NCBI GenBank assembly: GCA_951799425.1
Contig: OX637394.1
Coordinates: 32,710,001 to 32,774,000, forward strand
DNA: 64,000 bases
Direction: 5' to 3'
Source: Ilex aquifolium
Lineage: Eukaryota > Streptophyta > Magnoliopsida > Aquifoliales > Aquifoliaceae
The notes beneath the pieces were generated by a model that saw only the letters and a list, made by a program, of their open reading frames with translations, was not told the DNA's origin and made no database searches. A program made the position numbers and the translations under genes. Numbering within the stretch: the first letter of the stretch is position 1; each line of letters starts with the position of its first letter. Below are positions 2,414-39,800 of the stretch, piece by piece.

Positions 2414-4193
2414 TGATTAGTAGTTAAAATTAGCAACTTACTATGCCCTTTTTAAGACTAATTATGCTTTGATAGAGTTTCAATGATAAAAGATTGTACA
2501 AGGGCCTAAAGTAAATGGATACCAAATTTTCATACAACACCCACATGTACTGGAAAAAAATTGGAGAAGTTTGAAACAAGGCATGAACGTTCAAACGCTA
2601 ATCCACGTTCAAACGTCCCCTTGAATTATTTGAGGACCAAACTACTGAGGTGATCCTACATGGCGTGTTGCAGGTATTCCCTAAGAAGAAGAAAAAAAAT
2701 AGGTACTTGAGTACCACGTTCGAACGCCAATCCACGTTCTAACGTTGACTTGAATCATTTGAGGACCAGACTACTGAGTACTAGGGCAATGGCAATGGCA
2801 TTTTGCATGTTGCAGTTACTCTCACAGAAGAACAAAGGCCACTTGAGTAGGAAGTTCAAACTCCACCCAGCGTTCAAACGCCCATCAAGGAAAATATGAG
2901 ACAACTTTCGAACGCCATCTAACGTTCAAATGTTGTCCCCAGACAGCCTACAGAGTGGTTGATTTTCTATCTGGACCTTGGGGCACTCACTTGGACTTTG
3001 AAGACCTTGCCTAATATTTTACATTTCCTTGCCCCCTCCTCCTTGCCTATAAATACTCATGTTGTGGGAGCTTCAAAGAACAATTTAGGAGAGCTAGAGC
3101 TAGTTGTAGAGTTAGATTTACATTTACTTGCATAGAGGAAGATAGATTATCTTTTGGTTGAGGAGGAAACCCTCCAAAAGTGACTATCTTTCTTCTACTT
3201 TCATTATTAGTTTCATTTGCTTCCATTGTTTGAGATTCCTTCTTCCCTTAGAGGAGTAAAACTCTTCCACTTTTCTAGAGCTTTACGAAAGCTGTGAAGG
3301 GTGGAACGTGATTCACTTATTCTTCGTCGATGATCGGCTCCTTGTGTAGTGTGTTTTACCTTGTAACTCCTCTACTTGGAGGGATGAGAATCACTTTTTT
3401 TTTTATCTTTACCAAAGCCATGAAGAGTGAGTAGTTTCTCATTCACTCTTTAGTAAGAGGTGATGGACATGTATAAATCATTCAGAAGTTATATTTGTGT
3501 ATTTCATTTATGCTTAATGTTTTATCTCTTACTTGCTTATTGAATGATTGAATGCATCTAGCAAAGCTAAGGTACTTTGCACAACCATGAGTCCTTTCTA
3601 TGGCATAGATGACTCTTAGTATAGGAAGACTCATTGGTCCTTTGCAAGTATTCTAGCTAGATCTTCATGACTACCTTTCAATCTTCATCATTATTGTGTT
3701 TCAACTAAGAATGGAATACTAACACCATCGTTGGATGCCTTGTAGAAACACTTGCTTGTTTGTAGACGGGTTGAGTCTCGGCACAGACAATTCTTGTAAA
3801 TCTCTACAAAGATAGCGGAACCATGCTCTTAATTCTCACAATCCATTTTTATCTTCCGATTAACTTCATATTGACACAGGAGTTAATTGAGTTCCCAAGC
3901 ATAAGTATAACAACCGGATGATTGACTATATGCCCAAATTCTCGAGCTAAAGGGTGACTTTTACATTTGAGATTATCTTATATTTTGTCTTGAAAATCTT
4001 CTTGGAAATAATTTAATATTCTACCCAAGAAAATCCATAAATATCATAACTTTAAATCTCAAGGGTTCCAGTCACTTTGGTCTCTGTCACTGTTTACTTC
4101 AAAACACCAACATTAGTTCCATGTGGATTTGACTCCGGACTTAAACGGATTATTACTATAACTTGACCACCTGCATTTAGGTGTACACACTTC
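2414..4193 (+). repeat. 5' LTR of the Athila-type element (family A LTR)
   Basis: Colinear with the 3' LTR at 13179-14962. It starts TGATTAGTAG and is recognisable to about 4193. The last ten or so bases present in the 3' LTR (GGATCAAGTCA) are missing and the sequence runs directly into gag. It also lacks a 13-bp segment near 2486 that the 3' LTR retains. Many palindrome sites that read CGTTCGAACG in the 3' LTR read CGTTCAAACG or CGTTCTAACG here. U3 is at about 2414-3080. Confidence 0.92.
2588..3056 (+). promoter_or_regulatory. U3 promoter of 5' LTR: palindrome pairs plus TATA box
   Basis: Paired decamers related to CGTTCGAACG start at 2588/2606 and 2717/2735, each pair 18 bp apart; further copies lie at about 2850-2935. 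The repeat unit carrying each pair recurs about every 128 bp, with TTTGAGGACCAGACT shared between units. The TATA box CCTATAAATAC is at 3046-3056. Its role as the element promoter is inferred from position in U3. Several sites are CpG-decayed. Confidence 0.75.
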
Positions 4194-7100
4194 ATTTGGA
4201 GGAACACACAACCAACTCCCATGAATCCACAACAAGTTCAAAACCACCACCTCAAGGACCTCCTGCATATCAGCCATGCCAACCACCACACAAGAGAAGT
4301 CTTGAGGATACTTTGAATCAGTTCATGTAGACCTAATTGAACTATAACACTCATTCCACGCAAGTTTTCAATGATTTCAAAGCCCAAACCACCCAGTCTT
4401 TCGAGGATTTTAAAAGCCACATCCAAAAGCTGACCCAATCGATGACCACACATTAGAAGGGCAAATTTCCTGACCAACCAAAACAACCACAAGGCCAATT
4501 TCATGTGAGAAATCCTTCAATCATGGAAACCCCACAAGACCAAGCTCAAGCTATCACTACACTCATAAATGGCAAGGTGATTGACAAAACCATCAGGGAC
4601 ATGTTAATTCCAAAGCCAAGACCTGAGTCAATCTCAGTCACTGAACCAGTTGAGCCTGAACCAGTTGAGTTTGAACCTATGATTGAAACAGAGCCAGAAC
4701 CATCAAAGGAAAAAGATCCTTCTTTTCCTATTTCTGCTCCTTTTCCTCAAAGACTCAAAAAAGTATAGAAATTGAATAACCATACAGAAACCTACGAGCT
4801 CTTTAAGCAAGTGAAAATCAATATCCCACTTCTGGATGCAATTAAGCAGGTTCCATCCTATGCCAAGTTTATAAAGGACTTGTGCACGATTAAGAGAAGC
4901 CAAAATGTTCAAAAAAGAGTCTTATTGACGGAACAAGCCAGTGCCCTACATCAACACAAAATTCCTTCAAAATACAAAGATCTAGGGTGTCCAACTGTGT
5001 CATGTGTCATTGGAAACTTCATAATATTACAAGTTCTGCTGGATCTTGGAGCTAGTGTCAATTTGCTCCCTTTCTCTATATATCAACAATTGAGTTTGGG
5101 TGAACTCAAACCCACTTGTATTACACTCCAGTTGGCAGATAGGTCTGTCAAAGTCTCGAGAGGCATTGTTGAGGATGTCCTTGTTCAGGTAGACAACTTT
5201 GTCTTTCCAGTTGATTTCATTGTTTTGGACACTCAGCCAGTAATGGCATTCAGAGAACCAAATTCCTGTCATTCTTGGTCGACCCTTCCTAACAACCTCT
5301 CCAATACATTGATCAATTGCAGGAATGGAGTCATGAAACTAACTTTTGGGAACATGACTCTTGAGCATAATATTTTCAATATTGCCAAACACCCTGGAGA
5401 GGACAGGGAAGTGAGAGAAGTAAATTTCATTGAGTCTTTGGTCCATGAACATTTGAATGATACATTTTGTGAAACCTCTGCTGAATCCTGTCTGTTGGAA
5501 CCCATCACATCTGAGTTAACTGACGATGATCAAAATCCACAAAGTTGCCCCGCTCATGCTATTGAGACATATGCACCTAAATTTGAAGAACTTTCATCAA
5601 GTGGTAGAAAGCCACTTTCATCAAATGTCAAACCACCCAAGCCTAAACTAAAACCTCTCCCATCTGACCTAAAATATGCATTCTTAGGGGATGACGAGTC
5701 ATGTCCAGTGGTAATTTCATCTAAGCTTGCAGAGTTGCAAGAGTCTAAGTTGATTGAAGTCCTTAGACACCATGAAAGCACCATTGGGTGGACCATTGCT
5801 GATTTGAAAGGTATAAGCCAGTTAATATGTAATCATGTTATATACCTTGAGGAGGATTCAAAACCCTCTCTTCAGATGCAGCGAAGGTTAAACCCTCAGA
5901 TGAAGGAGGTTGTAAGGATTGAGGTGCTCAAACTATTGGATATTGGAATAATCTTTCCGATCTCTGATAGTAAATGGGTTAGCCCAACCCAAGTTGTGCC
6001 CAAGAAGTGTGGGATCACAGTGGTTAGAAATGATGCTAATGAGCTGGCACCAACTCGAGTCGTCACAGGATGGCGAATGTACGTAGACTATCGAAAACTC
6101 AATTTGGTAACTAGGAAATACCATTTTTCTCTTCCATTTCTTGATCAAGTCTTAGAAAGAATTGCAGGTCATGCATTTTACTGTTTTTTAGATGGTTATT
6201 CTGGGTATAATCAAATTGAGATAGCACTAGATGACTAGGAGAAAACAACATTCACATGCCCCTTTGGCACCTTTGCATTCAAAAAGATGTCGGTTGGACT
6301 TTGTAACAATCCTGCAACATTCCAAAGGTGCATGTTGAGTTTGTTTAGTGACATGGTTGAGAAATTTTTGGAAGTGTTCATGGATGATTTTTCTGTATAT
6401 GGGGATTTGTTTGATTTGCGTTTGACAAATCTAGAGAAAGTGTTGATAAGATGTAAGGAAGCTAATCTAGTGCTCTATTGGAATAAATGTCATTTCATGG
6501 TAATACAAGGCATTGTTCTAGGTCACATTGTATCGTCTGAAGGCATAAAAGTTGACAAGGCAAAAATAGATCTGATTGAAAATTTGCTTGCTCCCAAGAC
6601 TGTTAAAGATGTCCGATCATTTTTAGGACATGCAGGGTTTTATAGGAGATTCATAAAAGACTTTAGTACCATATCTAAACCCATGTGTCATCTCCTAAGT
6701 CAGGATGTTTCTTTTGTGTGGAGTAAAGCATGCCAGAAAGCTTTTGATAAGCTTAAAGGTATGTTAATTTCTGCCCCAATAATGCAACCTCCTAACTGGA
6801 CTCTACCGTTTGAATTAATATGTGATGCAAGTGATTATGTTGTAGGAGCTGTGTTGAGACAAAGAAAGGATAAGAAACTATATGTGATTTACTATGCAAA
6901 CAAAACTTTTAACAATGCTCAAATGAATTATTCCACGACTGAAAAAGAATTGTTTGCTGTAGTTTTTTCTCTGGAGAAATTTCGTTCTTACCTTGTTGGT
7001 TCTTCTGTTATTGTGTTCACTGACCATGCAGCATTAAAATTCTTGCTCAAAAAGAAAGATGTCAAGTCAAGGCTCTTAAGATGGATACTCTTACTACAAG

Positions 7101-8518
7101 AGTTTGATCTGATCATTAAAGACAAGAAGGGTGTTGAGAATGTGGTGGCAAATCATCTATCCAGGTTAATATATGAATTTCATGAGGATGGACTGCCAAT
7201 CAATGAAAATTTCTCTGATGAACAACTGTTCACAGTCATGGAAACACCATGGTACGCTGATATTGCTAACTTCCTTGCTATTGCTACGTTTTCTCCTTCC
7301 TTTATAATGATGGATAAGAAGAAATTTCTGAGGGAGGTTCGTAATTTCTTTTGGGAGGATCCATACGTGTTTAAGTACTGTAAGGATCAAATCATAATGC
7401 GTTGCATCCCCGATCATGAGAACAGACAGGTAATATCTTTTTGTCATTCTAAAGCATGTGGTGGCCATTTTTCATCTAAAAAAACCGTTGTGAAAATCTT
7501 GTAGTGTGGATTTTATTGGCCCACACTTTTTAAAGATGTCCATGCATTTTGTCTAACATGTGATAAATGCCAAAGGTTGAAAAGCATTTTTAAAAGAAAT
7601 ATGATGCCCTTGAACCCAATTCTGGTAATTGAATTTTTTGACTGTTGGGGCATCGATTTTATGGGACCATTTTCCCCTTCCTTCGGCTATCTATATATTT
7701 TAGTGGCAGTTGATTATGTGTCCAAATGGGTTGAAGCAATTACATGCCGAAATAATGATCACCGAACAGTGATCAAATTTTTAAAAGAAAACATTTTGTC
7801 TAGGTTTGGAATTCCTAAATCTATTATAAGTGATGGGGGTGCTTATTTTTGCAATCGTCTTTTTTGGAATTTGATGAAAAAGTACTTGATTTCTCATAAA
7901 ATTGCAACCACTTATCATTCACAGACTATTTGACAGGCTAAATTAGCTAATCAAGAGATCAAACTAATTTTAGAAAAAATGATAAACTCGGACCACAAAG
8001 ATTGGTTGTTGAGACTAACTGATACACTATGGGCATATCGCAATGTTTTTAAAATAATTTTAGGCATGTCTCTTTATCGATTAGTCTATGGCAAGTCTTG
8101 TCACCTACCTGTGGAATTGGAACACAAAGCATACTGGGCCATTAAAAAAATGAACTTTGACCTAGACAAGGCTGGACTCTCAAGAAAACTTCAGATTAAT
8201 GAATTAGAGGAATTGAGAAATGAGGCATATGACAATGCGAAAATCACAAAGAAAAGGATGAAGGTTTTTCATGATAAAAATATATTGAGAAAATCCTTTA
8301 CCCCTTCACAGAAAGTACTCTTATTCAATTCAAGGCTCTGCCTGTTTCCTGGTAAGTTGAGATCTAGATGGATTGGGTCTTACATTGTCAAACAAGTGTT
8401 TGGACATGGAGCAGTGGAAGTGGAAAATCCATCAAATGATAATATTTTTACTGTCAATGGTCAGCGTTTGAAACCATTTTTGGAAGACTTTTTAAAGATG
8501 TGGAAACCATTTTTTTAA
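4194..8518 (+). pseudogene. Athila-type gag-pol remnant
   Basis: One reading frame runs from about 4196 to 8518 with nonsense codons but no frameshift that I can find. Order: gag C-terminus (4196-4770); aspartic protease (LLDLGASVNLL at about 5036); reverse transcriptase (YVDYRKLN near 6080, catalytic FMDDFS near 6377); RNase H (CDASDYVVGAVL near 6820, TDHAALKFLL near 7019); integrase zinc region (H-H-C-C, about 7440-7575) and DDE core (FDCWGIDFMG near 7640, ISDGG near 7830, E near 7957). In-frame stops lie in the gag part and at 4766, 6236, 7502 and 7931. Several are TAG or TAA where the family usually has Gln. The N-terminal gag (capsid) is absent because the LTR is fused to the gag tail. 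No normal product can be made. Confidence 0.93.
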
Positions 8519-9840
8519 TGGTTCCAGAATATTCCTCCGAGATTCGCGCTTGCCGACATAAAAAGGGGTCGGTTCAGGAAAAATCCAACCCAAATCGACC
8601 CGAAAGGACGCCTTTATAAGTTTCCCCATCCCCCGCTATTTTTCTTTTTCTTCTTCTTCTTCGTTTTCTCTATTCTCTGTAAAATGACCCACCCCCTGCA
8701 AATCCATGGCTACACACTCCACAGACTTAATCTTTTGTTTCATGTTTTGCACTTTAATTTTGTATTTTCTCATGAGTGTCCTGCTCTTGTTTACACTCAC
8801 ACACAAGTATTTTCATCCTACCCGAAACCCAGATCTTCGTAAAGATGATTAATTTGTGTATTTTTTTGTACGCGCCAGCAGATGAATAGATCTCTACTTT
8901 CAATCCTAACTCCACTTTGCGTATACTGGTAAATTCGAAACATTGAGGACAATGTTGAGTTTAGGTTAGGGGGTGAGAACTATATTTCATATTTTGTGGC
9001 TTTTAAAAAAAAATTCTTGATTGTATTGTGTATTCTGTCTTGTATTTCGTATTTTTACAGTCTTTATAGTGATGATCATATCTTTAAAGTAGCTTCAATC
9101 GTCTTTGTGACTGGTAGACGTTAAAGAACTAGATAGAGTGTCTTAAAGCTTAGCAAGCATGGATTGTAAAAATTTTTGGTTCAGTCTAGGAGTTTTACGC
9201 ATTTTTTCATCTGATGTGCATTCTGTGATAATGAGAAAAGCAAGATTGGTAACAAAAATTGAAATCCAAGAACAACAGGCTAAACCACTGTGTGGAAGAA
9301 GCACTTTTGCTAAACGTCATCATGCCAAAAGACTTGGTGCCTATAAACAATGTGGTCGGATCTTTCACATGAAAGAATATAATCAGTGTTCTGAACCAAT
9401 TTTCGGTCGCGCACTCGATCAATTAGACTGGATAGTGAATGGGCAAAGTAAGGATTACTTTGAGACACCATGCTATTCCGGTACTTTGCTTTCCCATTTT
9501 GTGTGACTTTGACAGAAAATCAGAAGAGTCACTAATTGTTCAAATGGCATGGAGACAAAGGAAGATTCGGACTAGACTATTTTTTGACAAAATTGTGGAA
9601 AATTGTGTTTTTTGGATGAAAGCCAAAGGTCCGAACTTTTTGTAAAAAAGTGTAAATATCTTTTTGTTAGATGTACAAAATCCTTTTTGTTGAAAATAAA
9701 TGTGGGCCGAGTAAGGAATGTCCTAGAATACCAACCTTATGCGTGGGTAGGGACTTATCTTGAGACGCCGTGATTTTTTTTCAAAGTTCAAATTGTGTAT
9801 ATAGCCTTCTTTTAATGTGTATATAAATGTGCATAAAAAT
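8519..9840 (+). other. Spacer between integrase and internal promoter, with second PPT-like site
   Basis: No convincing coding sequence; a 115-codon frame at 9159-9506 matches nothing I recognise. Near 8610 a TTTATAA box precedes a long pyrimidine tract (8640-8680), which could be a weak start site. At 8953-8978 the words GAGTTTAGGTTAGGGGGTGAG closely resemble the polypurine tract just before the 3' LTR. A GAGGACAAT motif just before this is common in the same position in Athila elements, from my knowledge of the family. Confidence 0.55.
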
Positions 9841-9857
9841 TTTGATTTATGATTTGG

Positions 9858-10155
9858 TGTTCGAACGCCAGTTAACGTTCGAACGTTGGCTGCTCATAGT
9901 ACTTTTGCCTCTATAGGAAATGAAAAGTACTAGGAGCACCAAACGTTCGAACGTCTGAGTAACGTTTGAACTAAGACTGAACGTTCGAACGCCATACCCA
10001 CATTTGAACGCTAGGAGTTTAACAGTACTTTGGCCTTTGATAGAACATCAAAAGTATTGGGAGCTCTCCACGTTCGAACGCCAGTGTAACGTTCGAACCA
10101 TCTTTTTAAAATCCTTCTACAAACGTTCGAATGTTGGCTCCCTGCCTATAAATAC
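9858..10155 (+). promoter_or_regulatory. Internal promoter-like block with CGTTCGAACG pairs and TATA box
   Basis: Perfect CGTTCGAACG at 9876, 9944, 9982 and 10071, with degenerate partners at 9858, 9963, 10001 and 10090. Within-pair spacing is 18-19 bp. Another copy (degenerate) at about 10123 is followed by CCTATAAATAC at 10145-10155. The 3' ORF begins about 200 bp downstream. Intervening text (AGTACTTTGG..., GGGAGCTC) resembles the T2 chromovirus LTR at 23.8-23.9 kb more than the element's own LTR. Promoter function is inferred from motif order. Confidence 0.65.
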
Positions 10156-10355
10156 ATGGTTCGTCTTCTTCATTTCAAAATCACCCAAAACCCTTGCAAA
10201 ACCTCAAAACCCTCGATGACCCTTCACTTCCCAAGCCTCAAAACTTCATCTATTCTCAATTTCTACCCAAAATCCACCATCCCAAACATATTCCCACCTT
10301 TTCACCAAGAAATCCAAACTTTTCAAGCCCTAAAAATCCCCCAAAACCGAGAATC

Positions 10356-11451
10356 ATGCCTCCAAGAATGAAGATTCCTGCTAGGCGCAAGACAACCACT
10401 CGAGCCCAATTTTGTAGAAGAGGTGATCGAGGAACGAGAGGGAAGGCCACCCATTGTCCGAAGATACGATAGAACCCGCTTCCCTAATGCTCTCAAAGCG
10501 GATAGGTACGAAAATTTCTTTCAAAATAAAGCTATTGTTTGTGAACGAACAGTTGTGTTGTCGGATTTTGAGGATTTGGGCATTTTTGTGAATATGTAGG
10601 CGAGAGGGTGAAGTTTGTATTTGAGGAACGGTGGAGAGGCGGTGAAAGAATTGGTGCGGGAGTTTTACTCCAACGCCGAAATCTTCAATGGGGTGATAAA
10701 GACGTATGTGATGAGGGACCACATCGATGTGGATGAGGACTACATTTGGGAGATGAGGCAAGAGGTACCACGAGTACCAAAGCCTAGCTACCCCCTGAGG
10801 AAGAACGTGGGGATGGACGTTGTGGGTATGGAGTTGACGGGCTTGGCTACGTTTACTTGGGTAGGATGGAGGATCTTTAGGCAAGGAGAGTTGACCGACA
10901 AATACAAAATGCTCAACTTAATTGTCATCTCAAACTTTGCCCCCATTGGACGCAAGAATGAAATCCTCCCAGAGATGGCCCGATTACTATACGTAATAGG
11001 GAGGGGCCAAAGCATAGATCTCCCATCCTTAATCTTGATGGAGATGATGAAGGGGTGTGACGTGAAGAGGAATTCACTCCCCTTCAGTACCCTTGTGACG
11101 AAGATATGCTCGGACTATGGAGTGAGAATGAGGCCGAAGATGGGAGTGCAGAAGCCGATGGGGCCATTGAACAAGGCATCCTTCTGAAGGACCCAAGGTC
11201 ACAATGGCGGCCCGGTAGCAAGACAGGATATGCCGCCTGCCCGAGGCACCGATGAGGTGCAAGATGTTTTGGATGAGAAGGAGGAGAGAGAGGCTGAGAG
11301 AGGCCATGAGGAGGCACAGACTGAGGCAGGTACCAACACCAGCACCCGACGATCACTATAGGATATTATGCTTAGCATCGAGGCCAAGCAATATGAGATT
11401 CTCCGACAGTATGAGGAGATTCTCAGCCTTTTGAGGGGTGGAGCTGGATGA
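10356..11451 (+). pseudogene. Athila 3' ORF (env-position, plant transposon protein-like)
   Basis: Coding sequence begins at ATG 10356 with a basic N-terminus (MPPRMKIPARRKTTTR). It shifts frame near 10410 and then reads through stops near 10596, 10606, 11185 and about 11360. The stop at 11449-11451 ends a Glu/Arg-rich, probably coiled-coil tail. The middle part (LVREFYSNAEIF near 10640, GRGQSIDLPSLILMEM near 11005, LVTKICSDYGV near 11090) resembles the protein encoded 3' of integrase in many Athila and Tat elements, of unknown biochemical function. Its place corresponds to env of retroviruses, but I see no signal peptide or membrane segment. The block at 9858-10155 looks like its own promoter. 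Confidence 0.68.
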
Positions 11452-13178
11452 CCGTCAAATACTGGAGAGATGAGAGAGTGAGAGAGAGATTTCTGTACTT
11501 GGATGGTTGTCTGTCATTTTGTGGATGTTTGAATCTTTTGTGCTAAAATGATGATATTTTGTGAAATGAATGATTTTGTTTTATTACATTTATCTTTTTA
11601 AATGCATGTGTTAGATTTAGCATTACATTGTTATTTGTCAATGAATGATAGAACAAATGTAAATATTGAGACTATTTCTTAAAGTGACTAATCACATGAT
11701 CGGTTTGACACATCACCTAGCAATCTAGACTTAAAACCGCATATCTTTGAAAAATGGTATTTTCTCTATGCTTAAATGTCAAATGTACATTGGTATTTGT
11801 TATTCTTAAGGTACAAGATGACCAGACTCGAAAATGAAATTGATATATAACCGACACTCTTTGAAAACCTGACATAACCAGTGGAGATAACAAAGAATAT
11901 CATCGTAAGTTTTCGAGCCTTGCGATACTTTTGAGAGAAAATCAACATTACTCAGGTTTTTTTTTTACTTTTTATCCTTGAATAGTCTCATTAAAATTGT
12001 TATTGATTGACGCAAATAGAGTAGTCTATTGATGTATCCTGCAAAGAATATGTTCATACGACACATACATATGCACATGCTTGAGAAAGGATCTTAGGCC
12101 ATATTTGATTTAATTTTGAGCCGTAGTCATTTCTTTTACAAAATTATCCCTAGTTAGTCGGGATTGAGCCTTTAAAAGTGTAATTTCTTTTTCATATAAC
12201 CCGTATGATAACCGAGCCACGAAAAATATATTTGACATACCTTTGCTATCTAATTTTCTTGCACCCTCTTATAAATCAGTATGATATAGATAGAAAAATA
12301 TGGTGGCTACTATTCAAAGAAAGAAAAGTATGTGGAAACAACTGCAAAGGAAAGAGAAAGGAAGACAGAAAATAGCCAAGAAAGTGAAAAATGAGAAAAA
12401 AGAATGAAACAAAGAAATACCATATGTCGTTTTGTTAGCCACTGACCTCTGGCCACATTACAACCTATAAAAAACCCTAATTGATCTCAAATCTGATGCA
12501 TATGTAGGTCGTCAACCAAAAGTTTAGGGTATGTTAATAGCATTAGTTTATTTGTATCAATATTCTTCCATGAGATTATGCCAAACATGATTAGTCTGTT
12601 TCCTTAGATTTCACTCCCGAACCAATCGTGCACGTGAATTTACAATTAGCCTTTTTCTGATCACATGTCCTTTGAGAGAAAAGTCACTATAATCAGAGAG
12701 AATTTTTTCTGAGAGCATTCTAAGAGAGGTTTGTGAAATCAAAGCTATCCATGAAGGGTTGTAAAGAGGAGTGTTTGTTATATAACAATTCTTGTCGCTA
12801 GAATGATTATTCTGAATACATAGGGAATTTCAAATACTAGTGTGACAAATGCTTATTTTTGCATAGAATAAATACCTATGAAAGAGAAGTGTGCGGGAGA
12901 CAAGTCAAAATTGAGGGTTGGGTGTTCCAACGACCATGGTGATAACTCACTCTGACAAGCAATCTCACATACACACATCTGTTCGACTGAAGTTTGTGGG
13001 TAGCTTCACTGAAAACCTTCACGAGACAACACTCGTCCGCTAGGGGAAACCTAGTGGTTTAATGACTTGTTGCACATACTAAATGCAATTGGATGACCTA
13101 CGAAAATGGCATTGTAAATAATTTCGCATTCAATTGTTGTTGTATTACTAGAGACTAGCAATATTTAGGTTGGGGGTG
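11452..13178 (+). other. Athila 3' non-coding region and polypurine tract
   Basis: About 1.7 kb with no credible ORF, AT-rich, with short purine-rich stretches near 12300-12400. It ends in the polypurine tract TTTAGGTTGGGGGTG, which directly precedes the 3' LTR at 13179. Confidence 0.7.
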
Positions 13179-14962
13179 TGATTAGTAGTTAAAATTAGCA
13201 ACTTACTATGCCCTTTTTAAGACTAATTATGCTTTGATAGAGTTTCAATGATGACATTTCAGGTAAAAGATTGTACAATGGCCTAAAGTAAATGGATACC
13301 AAATTTTCATGCAACACCCACATGTACTGGAAGAAAATTAGAGAAGTTTGAAACAAGGCATAAACGTTCGAACGTCAATCCACGTTCGAACGTCCCCTTG
13401 AATTATTTGAGGACCAGACTGCTGAGGTGATGCTACATGGTATGTTGCAGCTATTCCCTAAGAAGAAAAACAAAGAGGTACTTGAGTACCACGTTCGAAC
13501 TCCAATCCACGTTTGAACGTTGCCTTGAATCATTTGAGGACCAGACTGCTGAGTGCTAGGGCAATGACATATGGCGTGTTGCAGTTACTCTCACAGAAGA
13601 ACAAAGGCCACTTGAGTAGGAAGTTCAAACTCCACCCAGCGTTCGAACGCCCATCAAGGAAAATAGGAGACAACGTTCGAACACCATCTAACATTCGAAC
13701 ATTATCCCTAGACAGTCTGCAGAGTGGTTGATTTTCTATCCGGACCTTGGGGCACTCACTTGGACTTTGAAGACCTTGCACTATTCTTTCACATTTCCTT
13801 GCCCCCCTTCTTCTTACCTATAAATACTCCCATTGTGGGAGCTTCAAAGAACAACTTAGGAGAGCTAGAGCTAGTTGTAGAGTTAGATTTACATTTACTT
13901 GCATAGAGGAAGATAGATCATCTTTTGGTTGAGGAGGAAACCCTCCAAAAGTGACTATCTTTCTTCTACTTTTATTATTAGTTTCATTTGCTTCCATTGT
14001 TTGAGCTTCCTTCTTCCCTTAGAGGAGTGAAACTCTTCCACTTTTCTAGAGCTTTACCAAAGCCGTGAAGGGTGGAACGTGATTCACTCATTCTTCGTCG
14101 AAGATCGGCTCCTTGTGTAGTGTGTTTTACCTTGTAACTCCTCTACTTGGAGGGACGAGAATCACTCACTTTTCTAGTTTTACCAAAGCCATGAAGAGTC
14201 ATTCACTCTTTAGTAAGAGGTGATGGCCATGTATAAATCATTTGAAAGTTATATTTGTGCATTTTGTTTATGCTTAATGCTTTATCTCTTACTTGCTTAT
14301 TGAATGATTGAATGCATCTAGCAAAGCTAAGGTACTTTGCATACAGGAGTCCTTTCTATGACATAGATGACTCTTGGCATAGGAAGACTCATTGTTCCTT
14401 TGCAAGTACTCTAGCTAGATCTTCATTACTACCTTTCAATCTGCATCATTATTGTGCTTCAACTAAGAATGTAATACTAACACCATGGTTGGATGCCTTG
14501 TAGAAACACTTGCTTGTTTGTAGATGGGTTGAGTCTCGGCACAGACAATTCTTGTAAATCTCTACAAAGACAGTGGAACCATACTCTTAATTCTCACAAT
14601 CCATTTTTATCTATTGATTAACTTCATGTTGACATAGGAGTTAATTGAGTTCCCAAGCATAAGTATAACAACCGGATGATTGACTACATATCTAGATCCT
14701 CGAGCTAAAGGGTGACTTTTACATTTGAGATTATCTTATATTTTGTCTAGAAAATCTTCTTGGAAAGAATTTAATATTCTACCCAAGAAAATCCATAAAC
14801 ATCATAACTTTAAATCTCAAGGGTTCCAATCACTTTGGTCTCTGTCACTGCTTACTTCGAAACACCAACATTAGTTCCCTGTGGATTCGACTCTGGACTT
14901 AACCAGATTATTACTACAACTTGACCGCCTGCACTTGGATGTACACATTTCGGATCAAGTCA
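13179..14962 (+). repeat. 3' LTR of the Athila-type element (family A LTR)
   Basis: 1784 bp, TGATTAGTAG to GGATCAAGTCA, followed by the duplication GTCGC. Colinear with the 5' LTR and with solo LTRs 16619-18333 and 24883-26813 on the minus strand. The U5 part contains TGTGGATTCGACTC (about 14880), typical of Athila/Tat-like LTRs. Confidence 0.94.
13365..13827 (+). promoter_or_regulatory. U3 promoter of 3' LTR: palindrome pairs plus TATA box
   Basis: Decamer pairs start at 13365/13383 (both perfect CGTTCGAACG), 13492/13510, 13622/13640 and 13674/13692. Every pair is exactly 18 bp apart. The first three pairs recur at 127-130 bp. CCTATAAATAC lies at 13817-13827, about 115 bp after the last pair. 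This is the best preserved copy of the module. Confidence 0.78.
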
Positions 14963-16618: not shown

Positions 16619-18333
16619 TGACTTGATCCGAAATGTGTACACCCAAGTGCAGGTGATCAAGTTATAGTTATAATCCAATTAAGTTCGGAGTCGAATCCAT
16701 AGGGAACTAATGTTGGTGTTTCGGAGTAAATAGTGACAGAGACCAAAGTGATCGAAACCCTTGAGATTTGAAGTTATGATGTTTATGGAATTTCCTGGAC
16801 AAAATATAAGATTTTCTCCAAAGGGTTTTTCTAGACAAAATATAATATTCTCTCAAATATAAAAGTCACCATTTAGCTCGAGGATCTGAACATATAGTCA
16901 ATCATCCGGTTGTTATATTTGTGCTTGAGAACTCAATTAACCCCTATGTCAACAACAAGTTAATTGGAGGATAAAGATGGACTTTGAGAATTCAAAGCAT
17001 GGTTCCGATGTCTTTGTAGAGATTTATAAGAATTGTCCGTGCCAGGACTCAACCCATCTACAAACAAGCAAGTAATTCTACAAGTCATCCAACCATTGTG
17101 TTAGTATTCCATTCTTAGTTGAAGCACAATAATTGTGAAGATTGAAATGTAGTCATGAAGATCTAGCTTGAGTACTTGCAAAGAACCAATGAATCCTCCT
17201 ACGCCAAGAGTCATCTTGTCTTAGAAATGATTCATGGTTGTACAAAGTAGCTTTGCTAGATGCATTCAATCATTCAATAAAAAATCAAAAGATAAAGCAT
17301 TAAGCATAAATGAAATGCACAAATATAACTTCCAAATGATTTATACATGTCCATCACCTCTTACTAAAGAGTGAATAAGAAACTAATCACTCTTCATGGC
17401 TTTGATAAAGCTAGAAAAGTGAGTGATTGTCATCCCTCCAAGTAGAGGAGTTACAAGGTAAAATAAACTACACAATGAGCCTATCTTCGACGAAGAATGA
17501 GTGAATCACTTTCCACCCTTCAAGGCTACAAGAGATCTAAAAAGGTGGAAGAGTTTCACTCCTCTAAGTGAAGAAAGAAGCTTTTACAATGGAAGCTAAT
17601 GAAACTAATTATGAAAGTGAAAGAAAGCTAGTTACTTTTGGAGGGTTTCTTCCTCTCCAAAAGATCTATATATCTCCCCCTACAAGTCCAAAGAGGAGGT
17701 ATTTATAGGCAAGGAAGAGGGGGAAAAGAAGAGCAAAAGAATAGTTCTAGGTGTTCAAAGTCCAAGTGAATGCCCCAAGATCCGGATGGAAAATCAACCA
17801 CTCTGCATACTGTCTGGGGAATACGTTCGAACGTGGAATGACATTCGAACGTTGACTCCTGTCTTCTGTGATGGGCGTTCGAACACTGACTGGAGTTTGA
17901 ACGTAATACTCAAGTGGCTTTTGTCTTCCATAGTGAAGAGCTACAACATGCCACGTGTCATCACCCTAGCAATCTCCTGGGGGTCCTCAAATAATTCAAG
18001 ATAGCGTTCGAACGTGTATTGGCGTTCGAACGTTGTACTCAAGTAGCTCTTTGTTCTTCTTCTCAGGGAATAGCTACAACAAGCCATATGTCATCACCCT
18101 AGCACTCTTCTGGGGGCCCTCAATTATTTCAAGATGGGCGTTCGAACGTGGATGTTTCGCTTGCTCTTCCTCCAATTGTCTTCCAGAACACGTGAGTGTT
18201 GCATGAAAGTTTGGTGTTTATTGACTTTAGGCCCTTGTACAATATTTTTCCCTGAAATGTGATCATTGAAACTCTATCAAAGATAATTAGTCTTATACAA
18301 GTATAGTAACTTGCTAATTTTAGCTATTCAACA
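16619..18333 (-). mobile_element. Solo LTR, family A, with GTTAC duplication
   Basis: 1715 bp, TGACTTGATCC to TATTCAACA on the plus strand, so U3 is at the right and transcription would run leftward. Flanked by GTTAC at 16614-16618 and 18334-18338. Homologous to the Athila LTRs. Its promoter module has perfect CGTTCGAACG at 17824, 18005, 18023 and 18139 (17824/17842 and 18005/18023 are 18-bp pairs). The TATA box on the minus strand is at 17699-17709. A solo LTR forms by recombination between the two LTRs of a full element. Confidence 0.93.
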
Positions 18334-19456: not shown

Positions 19457-21291
19457 TGCTTGATCAAAACCGCTGTTGTTCCTAACCTCCTAATATCATC
19501 CCTCAATGTGTATATGGTATATGTGTGAACGGAGTGTCACTCTCCCTCGGAATGATGTGGGAGATAGGACAACGGAATGGTGGTGGAAATGAAATGTATG
19601 AAATGCGAAATGAACAAAAGTGCTTCCCAAGCGCAAGGAGTCTTTTGCTTGTCGTGTTTTATTTGGAAAAGTATTCCAAGGTCGTCTCCTCAGGGAAGAA
19701 AAGTTCAAGTGTGTGAAGGTGATTTTGTCAAAGAGGAAAAGTGTAAAATCTTGTAGTTGGTTTTGGTGAGTTTTGTTCTTAATGAAAATGCAAGAAAACA
19801 AGTGTTGGCTAATCCAAAGAGTTCACTCCAATGAGGATGTCAATCCAACTCAAAGCCTTCCTCAAATGATGCATAGATGAACGATTGATTCGTGGGAAGT
19901 TAGGGACGAAATGGAGGTGAGGATCCAAGCATAAACCGTGACCAGACCTATGGGATATCAAAGACTCACAACCGTATCCAGTCTCAACCCATTCAAACCG
20001 AACCACCGTACACCGAGTGGAGGAAAAAATAAGAGTTGAAATAGAATCCTCATGGGGAGGTCTCCCTTGGATTAACCAACTAAAACTCTAGCTATTAATG
20101 CTAAAAGGAAAGGCATACAATATGTAAAAAGACATGGTATTGAAATGGAGCATGAAACTTAACTCAATGCAAGAAATCTTAAACTAAGAAGAAAAATATT
20201 CAATACACATTTCAAAGCTTGAAAATGAAGAACTAGCTGCAACAATGGTGGATTGAAGAACATATAATTAAACTTGCAATATTCTTGAAATAAAGGAGAT
20301 TACAATGCAGGAAATAAAGATTACAAGAGGTCTACAACTTACTGCAATGAAATGGGTGAAGAAAATGCAAAAACATATTATTCATCATCTTCCTCACTAA
20401 AACTACTCCTAAGCTTAGGTAGCCACCCCCTTCAAAGCTTGTGTGAATGCTCAATATATGGAGTGTAGAGACTTCAAATTTCGTCCATGAGGCTCCCCTA
20501 GCCTGTGTGTGCAGGCTTCCCATCAATGGGAAGAGATTTGATGGCTTGGACAGGCTAGGAGCAGCCTACCCAGCAACTCCCCAGGCAGCCCCCTTCTCTC
20601 CCATCCTCATTAATGCCCTTGCCTCCAAAGTCTTGAAATTGTGTAAGGATGGCATGGTTATGTGTAGAATATGTCAGGGTAGGCGTGGGAGAAGTGTAGG
20701 TGGGCCCCTCAAGAATTTGGAGAAGACTTGCAGGAGTTCTGGGCATTTTGGGCTGTTTCAAAAGAGCGTACCGGTACTGTGTACCGGTACCCCGAACTCC
20801 AGTAGGAAAATCGTATCGGTACGGCGTACCGGTACCCTTATGCTCCGGACCAATTTTCATAGAATTGTCATAACTTTTGATCCAACCGTCCGATTGAGCT
20901 GAAATTTTGACACAATTATGAAGACATCCAGATCTAAAACTTTCATGTTTTGCACTTTTTCAGATTCGAAGTGGATCATGGTCGAAAATGAGAAAAACAG
21001 AGGTACTGTGTCAAAACTTTGGGAAACCAGTGGGCTAAACCTTCCAAATTTCATTTTTCTTGGTTTCTTCACCTTTAAGCCTCCAAATCCTCATTGAATG
21101 TGTCCATCTCTTCACCACTCATTCATCCTTAGTTGCAAGGTTATAAAATCCATCATTTACGCTATAATTACCTGCAACATCGAAAATTCAACATTATTCA
21201 TAATTTCGGCTAACTCTAAGTCCTTAAATACAAAGTTGAGTTAAAATGTATATAATGAGGCCATGAAATATGCAAAATTTTGTGCTCATCA
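19457..21291 (-). mobile_element. Solo LTR, family B, copy 1, with GTTAC duplication
   Basis: 1835 bp, TGCTTGATC to TGCTCATCA, flanked by GTTAC (19452-19456 and 21292-21296). U5-like text CAAGGTCGTCTCCTCAGGGA near 19680 lies left, so the LTR is on the minus strand. Colinear with 21340-23194. U3 carries perfect GTACCGGTAC at 20768, 20781 and 20826 and a variant at 20813, i.e. two pairs 13 bp apart. A TATA-like CCATATATTGA on the minus strand lies at about 20452-20462. No coding content. Confidence 0.92.
20768..20835 (-). promoter_or_regulatory. GTACCGGTAC palindrome pairs in family B U3
   Basis: Decamers start at 20768, 20781, 20813 (GTATCGGTAC) and 20826; spacings are 13, 32 and 13 bp. The corresponding block in copy 2 is 22664-22734. 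Location in U3 upstream of the TATA-like box suggests regulatory sites; this is inference. Confidence 0.6.
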
Positions 21292-23405: not shown

Positions 23406-24694
23406 TGTAAACCCACACATGTTATTTTAATATAATGACGTAATTATGTTGTGATAATTATATATGTAATGACGTAAGAATAAATCATATAGGCTGTAAG
23501 AGTAGAAATACATAAGTGAGAGATAAATTGATCGTTCTCAATAGAAGTTAGGAAGAGAATTTCTTGATATCGTTAGGAGTTTCAATTATAACTTGATGTT
23601 CTAATATTGGATAGACATGAGACTTGGATAATAGAAACTAGATTTTAAATTCTATGCAAATGTATTTCACAAAGGTTTCGTGAATCGACTTGAAGCTAGG
23701 TCAAAAAAAAAACTATGTTGGAAGTGGATGTAGAAAACTGGACTCATGTTCGAACGAAAATCACATTTGAACTCTAGTTAGTTCAAGTACTTTCTTGTAT
23801 GACAGAGAGTCTAACATAAAAGGAGATATTGGGAGTAAGTCACGTTCGAATGGAGATTAGTTATAGTACTTTGGTTTCTGACAGAAGTCGAGATACTGGG
23901 AGCTCAGAATGTTCGAATGCCAAGTTCTGTTTGAAGCCACATTTGAACGCTAACCTAACGTTCGAACGTGAGTGTAATTTTAACAGTGATCAAACTTGTG
24001 TTTCCTGTCCAGATGCTGACCCTATAAATACCTAAGGACACATCTCTTAGCCTTATTGTCATCAATTTTTGACCTTAGGAAAACCTAGAGAGTGAGAGAG
24101 AAGGAGAAAATGCAAGATTCGAATGGGATTTTCACGTCAAAATGGATCAAACATGCTAGGTTTACAAACAAACTACGGATTGAAGGTAGGGGATTCTTCT
24201 TGAGTTCTTTCATTGACACTTAGGGTATTATATAATTATGTTTTGAATCTCCTTGATTAGTATATGTTTTAGATAATTGTTCATTCTAGATTTCTTTTTT
24301 ATTAACGTATGGTTTTAAATAAGATACATGTCTTGCCTTAAAGGAATATCGTTCTTAAATTTTCAAAACTCTAGTTTTGTTAAATACATGTTTTAATGTG
24401 AAAAATACGTGGATTCTTGAGTTCTAAATTTCTTTTCTTGATTAAATTATGTTTAAATCAAATACTTGTTCTCATTCCAAGAAATTATAATTTTTGGAGT
24501 AAACCTTAGAATTTTGGATATCACAATTATGAAGGTATGATCTCTTGTATATTTTAATTCCTTTATTATTATTGTATATGAAGAATTGTGAAATTGTGAA
24601 ACTTGAGTTTGGATGGAAATTGTCAATGGTTGAGATTATGGTTTTTGAGAGAGTTGTGGTTTTATCTTAGTATGGTTTGGGTGTGACGGACTTG
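23406..24694 (+). repeat. T2 chromovirus 3' LTR, first part
   Basis: Begins TGTAAACCC right after the T2 coding end. From about 23745 to 24690 it is colinear with the reverse complement of the solo LTR at 36223-38547, including GTGTGACGGACTT at the right end. At about 24694 the LTR is interrupted by LINE-like sequence and appears to resume at 27212. Confidence 0.78.
23747..24031 (+). promoter_or_regulatory. T2 LTR promoter with CGTTCGAACG-type sites and TATA box
   Basis: Sites at 23747 (TGTTCGAACG), 23764, about 23842, about 23910 and 23940 (CATTTGAACG), with a perfect CGTTCGAACG at 23959. The 23940/23959 pair is 19 bp apart. CCTATAAATAC is at 24021-24031, identical to the box of the Athila LTRs. 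The repeat filler (TAGTACTTTGG, CTGGGAGCTC) matches the internal Athila block at 9.9-10.1 kb. Confidence 0.68.
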
Positions 24695-24882: not shown

Positions 24883-26813
24883 TGACTTGATCCGAAATGT
24901 GTACACCCAAGTACAGACGGTCAAGCTGTAGTAATAATCCGGTTTGAGTCCGGAGTCGAATCCATAGGGAACTCTTCTTGGAGTTTTAAGATAAGCAGTG
25001 GTGGAGACCTATTGATTGTAACCCTTGAGATTTGAAGTTGTGTGAGGTGTGAGATTTCCTGGACAGAATATAAGATTCTTTCCAAGAGAATTTTCTAAAC
25101 AAAATATGAGATAAACTCTAATGTAAAGGAGTCACTCTTTAGTTCAAGGATCTGAACATGTAGTTAATTATCCAGTTTGTGATATTTGTGCTTGATAACT
25201 CAATTAACCCCCGTGTCAATAGTAGGTTAATCGGAAGATAAAGGTGGATTATGAGAATTAAGAACATGATTCCGATGTCTTTCTAGAAGTTTACAAGAAT
25301 TGTCGATGCCGAGACTTAACGTGTCTACAAACAAGCAAGTGTTTCTACAAGACATTCAATCATGACATTAATGTTCCATTTCCATTCTTTAATTTAAGCA
25401 CAATAATGGTGAAGATTGAAGGGTAGTCATGAAGATCTAGTCGGGGTACTTGTCTTGAACCAACGAGTCTTTCTATGCAAGAGTTATCTATGTCATAGAA
25501 AGAACACCTGGTTATACAAAGTACCTTAGTTTTGCTAGATGCAATCAATCATTAAATAAGCATATGGAATATAAAGCATTAAGCATAATCGAAATTGCAC
25601 AAATATAATTTTCGGATAATTTATACATGCCCTTCTCCTCTTAATAAAGAGTGAATGAGAAACTACTCACTCTTCATGGCTTTGGTAAAGCTAGAAAGGT
25701 GAGTGATGCTCATTCCTCCAAGTAGAGGGGTCACAAAACAAAACACAATAAACAAGGAGTCGATTTTCGACAAATAATGAGTGAATCACGTTCCACCCTT
25801 TACGGCTTTGGCGAAGTTCTAGAAAGTGGAAGAGTTTCACTCCTCTAAGGGAAGAAAGAAACTCAAGCAATGGAAGTGAATGAAACACAAATTAAAAGTA
25901 GAAGAAAGGTAGTCACTTTTGGAGGGTGATCCACAACCAAAGATAATCTATCTCCTTCTATGCATGTAATTGAAAGCATAAGCATAAAACTAATTTTACA
26001 ACAAGCTAAGAGATGTTGGACTAATGCCAAACCAATCTCTTAGAACAACTACTTTTTCATACAAGGAAATATAAGCTAATTCTACAACAATATGAGTGGG
26101 AGTCTAAGCCTCCATCAAACTCTCTAACTAAGTCCCTTAAGCTCTCCAACAATGGGAGTATTTATAGGCAAGGAGGAGGAGACAAGAGGGGGTTAAAGAA
26201 TAGTGTATGCCGCCCAAGTCCAAGTGAAAAGTCAACTACTCTGCAGCCAGTCTGTGGAGAACGTTCGAACGGTATCTGATGTTCAAACGTTGCATCTGTT
26301 TTTGTTTTATGGGTGTTCGAACGTTTCTTCTGTCTTTACTTTATGGACGTTCGAATGCCAAATGGGGTTTGACCCTCTCACTCAATTGGCCTGTGGTCTT
26401 CTATGGAAACCTATTTCCACACTCAATTCAGAACTTGGCGCTTTACACTCATTACCCTGGTCCTCAATTAGTTCTAGTGGACGTTCGAACGTGAGTTGGC
26501 GTTTGAACGTGATACTCAAGTGCCTCAGAGCCTCAGAGTCTTCCTTCTTGGCTGCAGCACGTCATGTCTCAACAGTCAGGTCTGCTCACAGTTCAAGTGG
26601 ACGTTCAGAAGTGAGTTGGCGTTCGAATGTTCTTGCTTTGCTCCAAGCTTCTCCAATTTTGTTCCCTAATGGCAGGTGTTACACTCAAATGTGATATTTG
26701 TTGTTCTTGAGTCCTTGTTCACTTTAAGACCTGAAATGTCATCACTTAAACTCCATCAAAGTACAATTAGTCTCAAAAAGGCATAGTAAAATGCTAATTT
26801 TAAGTACTAATCA
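24883..26813 (-). mobile_element. Solo LTR, family A, with GAAGG duplication
   Basis: 1931 bp, TGACTTGATCC to AGTACTAATCA, flanked by GAAGG at 24878-24882 and 26814-26818. It gives the cleanest definition of family A LTR ends. Promoter module on the minus strand: perfect CGTTCGAACG at 26262 and 26482, partners at 26280 and 26500 (both 18 bp away), and the TATA box complement at 26158-26168. Confidence 0.95.
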
Positions 26814-28580: not shown

Positions 28581-28759
28581 ATGTCCCCGCAATTCCAATG
28601 TTAAGGTAAGTCCTATCAGTAGCAAAAACACCGAGCAAGTCCAAAATCATCAACCTTTGGGGCGAGATTGACATGAAGAAGAATTTGTTGACAGGTAATT
28701 CTAATATGAGCCCACCCATGAAGATAGGCAAGCCCTTTGACTGTCCCCCTGTAGTGTGA
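28581..28759 (-). pseudogene. Captured receptor-like kinase fragment, copy 1
   Basis: Minus strand encodes GTVKGLAYLHGWAHIRI, then NLAPKVDDFGLAR, i.e. kinase subdomains VIb-VII with the DFG motif. The HRD catalytic loop is missing or deleted (the text runs HIRITCQQILLHVN). An AG acceptor-like site (CACTACAG) precedes the coding part, so genomic rather than cDNA capture is likely. Identical over 179 bp to 29876-30054. Confidence 0.75.
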
Positions 28760-29875: not shown

Positions 29876-30054
29876 ATGTCCCCGCAATTCCAATGTTAAG
29901 GTAAGTCCTATCAGTAGCAAAAACACCGAGCAAGTCCAAAATCATCAACCTTTGGGGCGAGATTGACATGAAGAAGAATTTGTTGACAGGTAATTCTAAT
30001 ATGAGCCCACCCATGAAGATAGGCAAGCCCTTTGACTGTCCCCCTGTAGTGTGA
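29876..30054 (-). pseudogene. Captured receptor-like kinase fragment, copy 2
   Basis: By eye identical at all 179 positions to 28581-28759; the flanks differ on both sides. Same broken kinase content. See the finding on this duplication. Confidence 0.75.
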
Positions 30055-36800: not shown

Positions 36801-39800
36801 ATAACTCAGTAGTATCATCCCATATTCTCATGTATATTGGTTCATATCCATTATCATGTATGTTGGTTGCTTCTTATGAATCTACACAACAATTCTACCT
36901 CGTTCACCCATCACAACCACACAATCTCAATCATTCCTCGTAGGGCCAAATCACAAACCACTTTAGGAAGGGCATATTACCGTCTCTCACGGTATTGACG
37001 AATCCTTCCCAGGAAAGGTATTCCATCCTTCAGTCTCGAACTTACGTGAACAATAGTGGTTGCTCTCACAACAATAATCTACTATAAGTGTTAGGCAACC
37101 ATCTCATCCCCACTGAGATAGGCTAACCTCTAACACTCTACGGTAGCTCTCGAAGGCAATTGAAGTCTGTCACACCAAACCATACAAGAGATGAAACCAC
37201 AATTTTTCTCAACAATCACAATCTTAACTAATCACAATTTTCATTAATATTCAAGTATCACAATTACACAATTCTCTATATATTATTGTAATAAATGAAT
37301 TAAAATATGTAAGAGATCATCTCAAAAAAACCTTCATAATTTCGATATTCAAAATTTTAGGGTTTTGCCAAAAATCGTAATTTCTTGGAATAAGAACAAG
37401 TATTAGATAAAAATATGATTTAATCAAGAATAGGAGTATAGAAATCAAGAATCCATGTATTTTTCACAATAGTTCATGTATTTTGGAAAAACTAGAGTGT
37501 TGGAAATTTAAGAACAATTATTCCTTAAACCCAAACATGTAGTTCGTTCAATACCCCGTTTCAATGATAAGCAAACCAAGAAATCATAAGTATTTATCAT
37601 ATAACTATCAAGAAAATTGAAAACATATATATATAATACCCTAAGCCTCAATGAAAGAATTTGAGAAGAATCCCCTACCTCGATTCCGTAGTTTGTGTGT
37701 AAACCTAGCGTGTTTGATCCGCTCCAACGTGAGAATCCCTCTTCAATCTTGTGTTTCTATTCTTCTCTCTTACTCTCCAAGGTTCTCTAGGGTTAGACAA
37801 GATGAAGTAGGGCTAGGGGAGGCATACTTAGGTATTTATAGGATGAAAAAATAGTGTAGTCGGTGAAGACCTGATACCCAAAATCGAGACAGCATGTTCG
37901 AACTAGAGTCTTGACGTTCGAACTATCTACTTGACCTTCGAACGTCATGTTGGCTTTCGAACGTTGTTTACTTCCAGTACTTTGGCTTTTTCTGGGACTA
38001 ACTGTCGTTCGAATGGATCAATTCAATTTTGAACGAACTCCAGTTTTTACCTGAACTTCCAAGAAAGTTTTGATCTAGTTAGAGGTCAATTCATAAAATT
38101 TTCATGAAATACACTTTTGTAGCCCTTGAAGTCTAGTTTTTACTGTAAAAATTTCAGGTCAATCGGACATTAGGGTAAAAAGTTATAGCCAAAATACTAA
38201 GGTTATGTCAAATTCTTTTTTACCCAAATCCTCTCCAAAATAGGTTTTAACTCTAGAATACTTCTAAACTTGTAATACAACCCATATAACCTCTTCTAAT
38301 ATTTTTTGACCTTCCAGATTCAATGAAAACCTTATTTTTACCTAAAAATTATAAAATTACTTAATTACCCTTCTCCAATTTAAACATCTCCAAAACTCAA
38401 TTTATCCCGAAAGTCAATACGGTTGAAACTCAAATTTCATAATCAATCTTTCAACAATGATTCTAAGTTTCTACTATCATTTTATTCATCTTAGGAGAAC
38501 TCTTAAGATTATATTATTTTTATTTAATTTTAATACGGGATCTTACAAATATGTTAATAGGACCTTCATATTTGGTTGTATATCATATCAACGCCATGTT
38601 ATCTTTGAAAAAATAATGTAGCTTGTTCTTGTGGTCTTCTAGTCAAATTTTATACATTTTTATCCCATAGGAAAAATCACTAGAAATCTATGAAGCACAG
38701 ACACTTTCAAGAAGCACAGGCACTTTAGGGTACGTTTGGTAACATTTTTGTTTTTATGTTTTCAAAAAAATAAAAAATAAAAACACTTTTTGTTTTTTTT
38801 TTTTTTTTTTGTGGTAAAGACTAAAAACAGAAAATATATTTGGTAGTCATTTATGTTTAACAAATTATGAAAAAAAAATAAAAATTGGTAACTACTTCAA
38901 GTTATGTCTTAATTATTTGCTTAATATTATTTCCTACTACAAAAACCATTAAAAATTCTTTATCCTAACATATCCACTAACTCATCAAATAAATATCGAA
39001 AGCAAAATAATTGAATTGCATAAGTCATTAAACATAGCAGTACATTCCATTGTTCAACATACTATCAAATGTATACATTAATAAGTCATTAACTGAACTA
39101 AAATCCCGATAATTAGTACGAATACCATGAACAGGATTTCATTTTTCTTGTAACGTATCCCCTCACCGCGCCATGACACTTCATTTGTCACAGCCATCGG
39201 AGGCCTTTGTGCAAATTAGAATGAAGGACCGAAACCCATCACTAGTTAGAAAAGGAAGCCCAATCAATTACATATTAAAATCACATGAATGCTTATTGAT
39301 CATAAACCAAGGTAACAAAAGCAAGTATCTTTAAACACTTGTAGTTACATTAACTATGCTTGAAACATAACACATGAGCAAATTCAAGTACATTTTAGAA
39401 AGAAACCCAATTTTTACACTGATTTGCCACTTTTTATTGGATAAGATCATATGCATGGTTTAGCTTTCATATATGTATTCACTGACAAGAAATCCCCGAT
39501 AGTGCATGAGGAGCAATATACTCAAATATAGTAATTAATAGAAAACCAATAAATTTGAGATGTGATATGTAGGTTTTGAGTGGTCCCCATCATCTCCTTC
39601 TTCTCCCACATCATTGAGCATATCTCCTATGCACAACAACCCTCCTACTCCTCTCATCTTTCTCTCTCTCCCTAGTTTTGTCCAAATCTCGTAGGAGAAT
39701 TGCAATTTATACAACTCATTAGCAAACCTAAGCTTTCTCTAGCTTAATTCAATATTACAAATCTAAAATCAATTTTAACAAACAAAACTTGAGATTGTAG

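Follow-up and report, generated by a model that had tools for sequence, protein, structure and literature searches.

The closest described counterparts of the promoters analysed here are the palindromic boxes of Sireviruses (Ty1/copia): the LTR carries these boxes repeatedly in its upper half, ahead of a conserved TATA box (Bousios et al. 2010, PMC2829016), and further copies are found after pol, 5' of the extra env gene; the boxes form predicted CpG islands. As presented in the accessible text of that paper, the boxes share a CGG-CCG core with a single exception (Tnd-1), and their motif is termed Sirevirus-specific, being absent from the classic retrotransposons compared there; an internal promoter is proposed for Sireviruses, without conclusive identification (PMC2829016). 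For maize Sireviruses, the available parts of two other papers describe an LTR cis-region with palindrome clusters, linked to secondary structure and small RNA (PMC5311732, PMC10760457).

A second point of comparison is given by the Athila-type elements, which are Ty3/gypsy and have, between pol and the 3' LTR, an ORF in sense orientation (review PMC7264820). In Athila4 and Calypso the linker contains an additional polypurine tract, and splice sites have been predicted for the extra gene of Athila and BAGY2 (PMC2829016). The accessible portions of these two sources (PMC7264820, PMC2829016) describe neither a palindrome array nor an internal TATA promoter for Athila.

We analysed a 64-kb stretch of Ilex aquifolium DNA, hereafter the window, in which a 10-bp palindrome, CGTTCGAACG, is probably a switch site common to two kinds of repeat element. 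The palindrome has the core TTCGAA and contains three CpGs per site. The features under discussion are collected in Table 1.

Table 1. Position of the repeat elements, palindrome arrays and ORFs in the window (sites counted at up to 2 mismatches).
Feature	Position	Strand	Basis or remarks
Family A Ty3/gypsy LTR element	2414..14962	+	LTR-LTR match, TSD, pol domains
LTR A1, U3 palindrome array, 7 sites	2588..2932	+	TATA box 3046-3056
pol of the family A element	4769..8518	+	RT, RNase H, then integrase; in-frame stops
ORF like betaflexivirus-type nucleic-acid-binding protein (PF05515, Viral_NABP)	9159..9503	+	between pol and internal block
Internal promoter-like block, 9 palindrome sites (9858-10133) and TATA box 10145-10155	9858..10155	+	motif scan
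Post-pol ORF, Pfam PF20167 Transposase_32 in open piece 10612-11184 (1.9e-19)	10356..11187	+	profile match
LTR A2, U3 palindrome array, 7 sites	13365..13701	+	TATA box 13817-13827
Solo LTR A3, TSD GTTAC	16619..18333	-	palindromes 17824-18148, TATA box 17699-17709
Family B1 (LTR-like), 5 palindrome sites, TATA box 24021-24031	23747..24031	+	motif scan
Solo LTR A4, TSD GAAGG	24883..26813	-	palindromes 26262-26629, TATA box 26158-26168
Family B2 (LTR-like), 5 palindrome sites, TATA box 37832-37842	37832..38015	-	motif scan

Results

The palindrome is tied to a TATA box

The window holds 15 exact copies of CGTTCGAACG, where dinucleotide shuffles give 0.01; with a first-order model the expectation is 0.005, and CGTTCGAACG is top-ranked among the 66 distinct 10-bp palindromes present. 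The copies start at 2717, 9876, 9944, 9982, 10071, 13365, 13383, 13640, 17824, 18005, 18023, 18139, 23959, 26262 and 26482, so that all those listed by an earlier, sequence-only reading of this DNA are indeed there. That reading also placed the copies upstream of one and the same CCTATAAATAC box, and here the association is tighter than it had claimed. On both strands of the window we count seven CCTATAAATAC boxes, against 0.04 by chance; each of the seven has palindromes upstream, with 5 to 9 sites per box when up to two mismatches are allowed. Conversely, every exact site (15/15) lies at most 500 bp upstream of a box, as do 38/38 of the sites with up to one mismatch and 47/53 of those with up to two. 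Among the six sites of the last class that fall outside this distance, four are CGTCCGGACG sites, i.e. a distinct motif.

The same reading restricted the array to the LTRs of family A, which does not hold: 5/15 exact copies are elsewhere, four of them (9876, 9944, 9982 and 10071) between pol and the 3' LTR of the family A element, and one (23959) in family B.

Our searches of the open-licence literature, mostly by titles and abstract starts, brought up no paper on the CGTTCGAACG motif, and queries with TTCGAACG, with GTTCGAAC plus retrotransposon, and with TTYGAA plus plant gave nothing recognisably on it. A search of the same literature for palindromes upstream of TATA in gypsy or plant LTRs returned PMC2829016 alone. 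No related loci were found in the viral contigs or in the prokaryote genomes searched.

Family A and family B

Family A is present in the window as three independent insertions, each with its own TSD: one element with both LTRs (A1 and A2) and the solo LTRs A3 and A4. The element has the 5-bp TSD GTCGC, and its two LTRs (5' LTR 2414-4193, 3' LTR 13179-14962) are 7.1% diverged (K2P); the 3' end of the 5' LTR is apparently lost, and the PBS appears to be missing too. In pol the protease match falls below the cut-off, while RT and RNase H precede integrase, which is the Ty3/gypsy order. Among the 120 RT matches listed out of 7953, the named relatives include Vitis, Malus, Prunus, Populus and Melia.

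The element resembles Athila by its Ty3/gypsy pol order, its 5-bp TSD and its sense ORF between pol and the 3' LTR. For the extra polypurine tract of Athila there is a candidate, spotted by eye at about 8960-8975, which resembles the tract before the 3' LTR (about 13163-13178). From the post-pol ORF and this by-eye tract, assignment to the Athila lineage would be our guess.

The layout of the palindromes resembles that of Sireviruses. There, at least eight copies per element are clustered upstream of the LTR TATA box; here we count 7+7 sites in the LTRs and nine internally (up to two mismatches). Likewise, additional copies lie 5' of a post-pol gene, in our case nine sites before the Transposase_32 ORF, whose likeness to env is only putative. 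The element is nevertheless not a Sirevirus, its pol having the Ty3/gypsy and not the Ty1/copia order, and the core of its palindrome being TTCGAA instead of CGG-CCG; both the palindrome and the superfamily also set it apart from the maize Sireviruses. Two further traits depart from the described Sireviruses: neighbouring sites frequently form pairs at 18-20 bp, and the LTR's TATA box recurs at the end of the internal array. It is the presence of this box there that is new relative to the Sirevirus layout.

Family B comprises two LTR-like sequences, B1 and B2, 66.5% identical over 1.3 kb. Its status as an LTR family is putative, as judged from the sequence, and no internal region of it is found in the window.

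Spacing of the sites

The sequence-only reading described ten pairs of sites at a fixed spacing of 18 bp, and concluded that a dimer pair binds on one DNA face. All ten pairs exist, their members having 0-2 mismatches except the one at 13622, which has three. In the four family A U3s, 25/28 sites have an 18-bp partner (up to two mismatches for the site, three being allowed for the partner); the three sites without such a partner belong to A3 (one) and A4 (two). The family A U3 contains a duplication of about 127 bp, by which these pairs are partly copies of one another; they should therefore not be taken as ten independent events.

Outside family A the 18-bp rule is relaxed, close neighbours lying mostly 18-20 bp apart. 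Distances of up to 40 bp between neighbours are 18 and 34 in family A; 18, 19, 19, 19, 19 and 34 in the internal block; 30 and 19 in B1; and 19, 20 and 20 in B2. We compared five arrays with random placement (A2, A3, the internal block, B1 and B2, leaving out A1 and A4): spacings of 17-20 bp are in excess in A2, A3, the internal block and B2 (P 0.002-0.003), and not significantly so in B1 (P 0.25). As for the single DNA face, it does not follow from this spacing since 18 bp makes 1.71 helical turns, that is 257 degrees; 19 and 20 bp correspond to 291 and 326 degrees, so that a common helical face was rejected.

Conservation of the core and of the CpGs

For the conservation of the sites we aligned four LTRs, two of them from one element; sites chosen in a given LTR were scored in a different one, and the pair of LTRs from the same element was excluded. 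Across the three independent insertions, the conservation that the sequence-only reading had asked for was clearly borne out at the four non-CpG positions of the site, TT/AA, where the contrary result of palindromes varying as much as their neighbours was looked for and not obtained; it was less even at the CpG positions. The former underwent 0-1 changes of 20-24, against 37-64 of 149-164 for the flanking non-CpG bases, with Fisher p values from 0.0046 to 1e-5 in ten overlapping comparisons. From A3 to A4, for example, 0/24 core positions changed against 64/156 in the flanks (p 1e-5), and from A4 to A3 0/20 against 61/151 (p 7e-5). Outside the palindromes the U3 diverges up to 200/507 among the family A LTRs.

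The six CpG positions of the sites show 4-12 changes of 30-36 across insertions. Between A3 and A4, 13/16 CpGs were kept in sites against 5/16 of the other LTR CpGs (p 0.006), and in the reverse direction 12/12 against 6/22 (p 3e-5); p was below 0.05 in only 4/12 overlapping comparisons, site CpGs being not clearly better kept in the other 8/12. Besides, the family A U3 is nearly devoid of CpG outside the sites (observed/expected 0.05-0.17), and the share of U3 CpGs that falls inside sites is 14/15, 16/18, 17/21 and 16/19 in the four LTRs. This share is 9/10 in B1 and 9/12 in B2, where the depletion outside sites is weaker (0.45); in the 364-bp stretch examined at the internal block (9781-10144) it reaches 20/20.

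The 41 changes counted over the 47 sites (up to two mismatches) are without exception at CpG positions, and 31 of them are of the deamination type. Such a clustering would be expected from methylation alone, and thus is not by itself a proof of selection. However, CpGs are short-lived, and the fact that every new insertion has retained them in its sites suggests that the source copies maintain them.

An array with its own TATA box inside the element

The internal block is situated between pol and the 3' LTR, and its palindromes are followed by a TATA box identical to that of the LTR, then by the Transposase_32 ORF. It is known from one copy, so that its status as a family trait stands at n=1. 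This block could have been copied recently from the LTR of the same element, a possibility that we rejected because, outside the palindromes and the TATA box, it matches the family A U3s at most marginally. With these motifs masked out, the block scored 23, 23, 20 and 18 against A1, A2, A3 and A4 respectively, and 0, 5, 37 and 79 of 300 shuffles did as well; the score against A1 is one point above the best of the 300 shuffles. By the same procedure B1 scored 32, when the best of 300 shuffles reached 22, and the two have a 43-bp stretch in common outside the palindromes; the match to B2 is weak (score 19, 5/300 shuffles as good). The resemblance of the internal block to B1 suggests that these two arrays may be of common descent, whereas the family A U3s look separate from the block, or too diverged to tell.

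Two palindromes of the block are joined, at 9875-9954, by an inverted repeat of 32 nt (91% complementary, 16 nt between its arms), which runs through a AGTACTTTT/AAAAGTACT motif; a related stretch is found in B1.

Downstream of the block, the Transposase_32 ORF may start near 10356; a first ATG, at 10216, comes between the block and the ATG at 10356. A frameshift and in-frame stops disrupt the ORF in the present copy.

The ORF that precedes the block matches the Pfam profile Viral_NABP at 7.8e-5 (23.2 bits against a cut-off of 23.0). We found ten relatives, 65-79% identical, on seven ENA and three JGI contigs of 528-2941 bp; with the window ORF included, 11/11 sequences match Viral_NABP, the best at 7.7e-13. 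These relatives may be viruses. The divergence of this ORF among its relatives resembles that of pol and of the Transposase_32 ORF, so that it may belong to the regular gene set of the retroelement lineage. A 2011 survey, in its accessible part, lists for plant genomes just one plus-strand RNA virus sequence, that of a replicase (PMC3136472). The window copy has an early stop and lacks one cysteine found in most relatives. A PDB sequence search with the NABP alignment hit nothing but chains of ribosomal protein L37/eL43, none of them better than E 0.12, and the structure models of the NABP and Transposase_32 proteins (pLDDT 39 and 43) were too poor for use.

Other palindrome arrays in the window

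Four perfect CGTCCGGACG palindromes, with a CCGG core, form two pairs at 23 bp in 29556-29669, when 0.14 are expected (up to one mismatch); they may be the promoter array of a further repeat family. Downstream of it, on the minus strand, a TTATAAATAC is present at 29483, a weak observation since 0.33 are expected. The region is flanked by direct repeats of 179 bp (28581-28759 and 29876-30054), 100% identical and too long for a TSD. Elsewhere, GTACCGGTAC palindromes occur in pairs at 13 or 16 bp (20768-20835 and 22664-22734); two 1.8-kb repeats, 77% identical, hold 8/9 of the GTACCGGTAC matches with up to one mismatch. From the CGTCCGGACG and GTACCGGTAC pairs, it may be that paired palindromes with a family-specific sequence are common in such repeats.

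Discussion

From the sequence-only interpretation we retain the cis-regulatory array beside a TATA box, without its single DNA face and without its restriction to family A LTRs. The reading that we favour, and hold for probable though far from certain, is that of a U3 enhancer array made of paired dimer sites, which the element would employ again internally, as second promoter of the post-pol ORF. In detail, CGTTCGAACG would be bound by a sequence-specific DNA-binding protein, which is most likely homodimeric; the symmetry of the palindrome makes such a dimer plausible. Neighbouring dimers, 18-20 bp apart, probably touch, so that the two sites of a pair might bind cooperatively. The arrays, consisting mostly of such pairs, would act as the enhancer lying upstream of a TATA promoter in at least two repeat families. 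In family A, the U3 array would drive the genomic RNA, and the internal array with its identical TATA box probably drives a separate transcript for the Transposase_32 ORF. The three CpGs of each site suggest that binding is probably sensitive to methylation, which at these positions would probably block binding or activation. Several observations count against this reading: the prevalence of deamination-type changes in the sites, the 8/12 comparisons in which site CpGs are not clearly better kept, the weaker CpG depletion of B2, the tandem duplicates among the family A pairs, the ATG at 10216 ahead of the ORF, the broken state of this ORF, the single copy of the internal block and its possible common descent with B1.

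The most serious of the other explanations, which we still regard as unlikely, is that the arrays act as inverted repeats, forming hairpins in the transcript or in DNA that serve as an RNA signal or as a source of host small RNA. The internal block, with its 32-nt inverted repeat (91% complementary), folds indeed far better than its shuffles (z -8.4), the other arrays follow at some distance (A2 -4.0, A3 -3.4, B2 -3.3, B1 -2.3), and Sirevirus LTR palindromes are presented as small-RNA hotspots in the available text of PMC5311732 and PMC10760457. At the opposite, A4 gives -0.44 only, while a control LTR stretch downstream of the TATA box scores -4.06. Moreover in 25 close pairs, where five facing positions had changed on both sides, none of the five (0/5) restored Watson-Crick pairing, and hairpins leave the tie to the TATA box unexplained. 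We therefore rejected the hairpin as a general main function; for the internal block a role of this kind is possible. Hardly more credible, and perhaps slightly less, is the view that the sites have no function: a palindrome arisen by chance would have spread through the U3s by tandem duplication and sequence exchange, its spacing being inherited with the repeat unit. The duplication of about 127 bp in the family A U3 and the 43-bp non-palindromic stretch common to the internal block and B1 show the sort of events this requires. Mere spreading, however, fits poorly with a non-CpG core that is conserved where the rest of the U3 diverges up to 200/507, with palindromes upstream of all seven TATA boxes, and with CpG-rich sites that persist within an otherwise CpG-depleted U3.

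The remaining alternatives concern the identity of the binding protein. VANC and TnpA of other plant transposons are element-encoded proteins that bind sites of their own element and self-activate. A protein of this element, NABP-like or encoded by the Transposase_32 ORF, might do the same, and it is true that these two ORFs flank the internal array and that proteins of the NABP type carry an annotation for nucleic-acid binding. We consider this improbable: family B has the same sites, and neither ORF is matched twice in the window (tblastn with five relatives). The point drawn from family B is itself weak, as B shows no internal region here; the structure models, of the low quality given above, lend the idea no help either. 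Its most elaborate form, in which a single palindrome code would govern two transcription units of a Ty3/gypsy element, with a betaflexivirus-type NABP product binding the palindromes and self-activating while the other family uses the same switch, seems to us highly improbable. Least credible of all is a host factor of the CPP/TCX (LIN54-type) group reading the core as a CHR element. Although 46/47 site cores fit TTYRAA, the consensus measured for human LIN54, whose domain is common to soybean CPP1 and Arabidopsis TSO1, binding is reported in the accessible text of the same source to be optimal where Y=T or R=A (PMC4974476); 35/47 of the present cores are TTCGAA, the sole variant outside this optimum, and the outer CGs of the palindrome would be left unexplained.

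Returning to the paired-site enhancer reused as an internal promoter, its interest lies in the extra gene. The recurrence of the LTR palindrome and TATA box before such a gene makes the route by which plant retroelements express it directly testable by mapping transcript starts. The finding also means that palindrome-box promoters occur outside Ty1/copia, and that one motif is common to different families of one genome.
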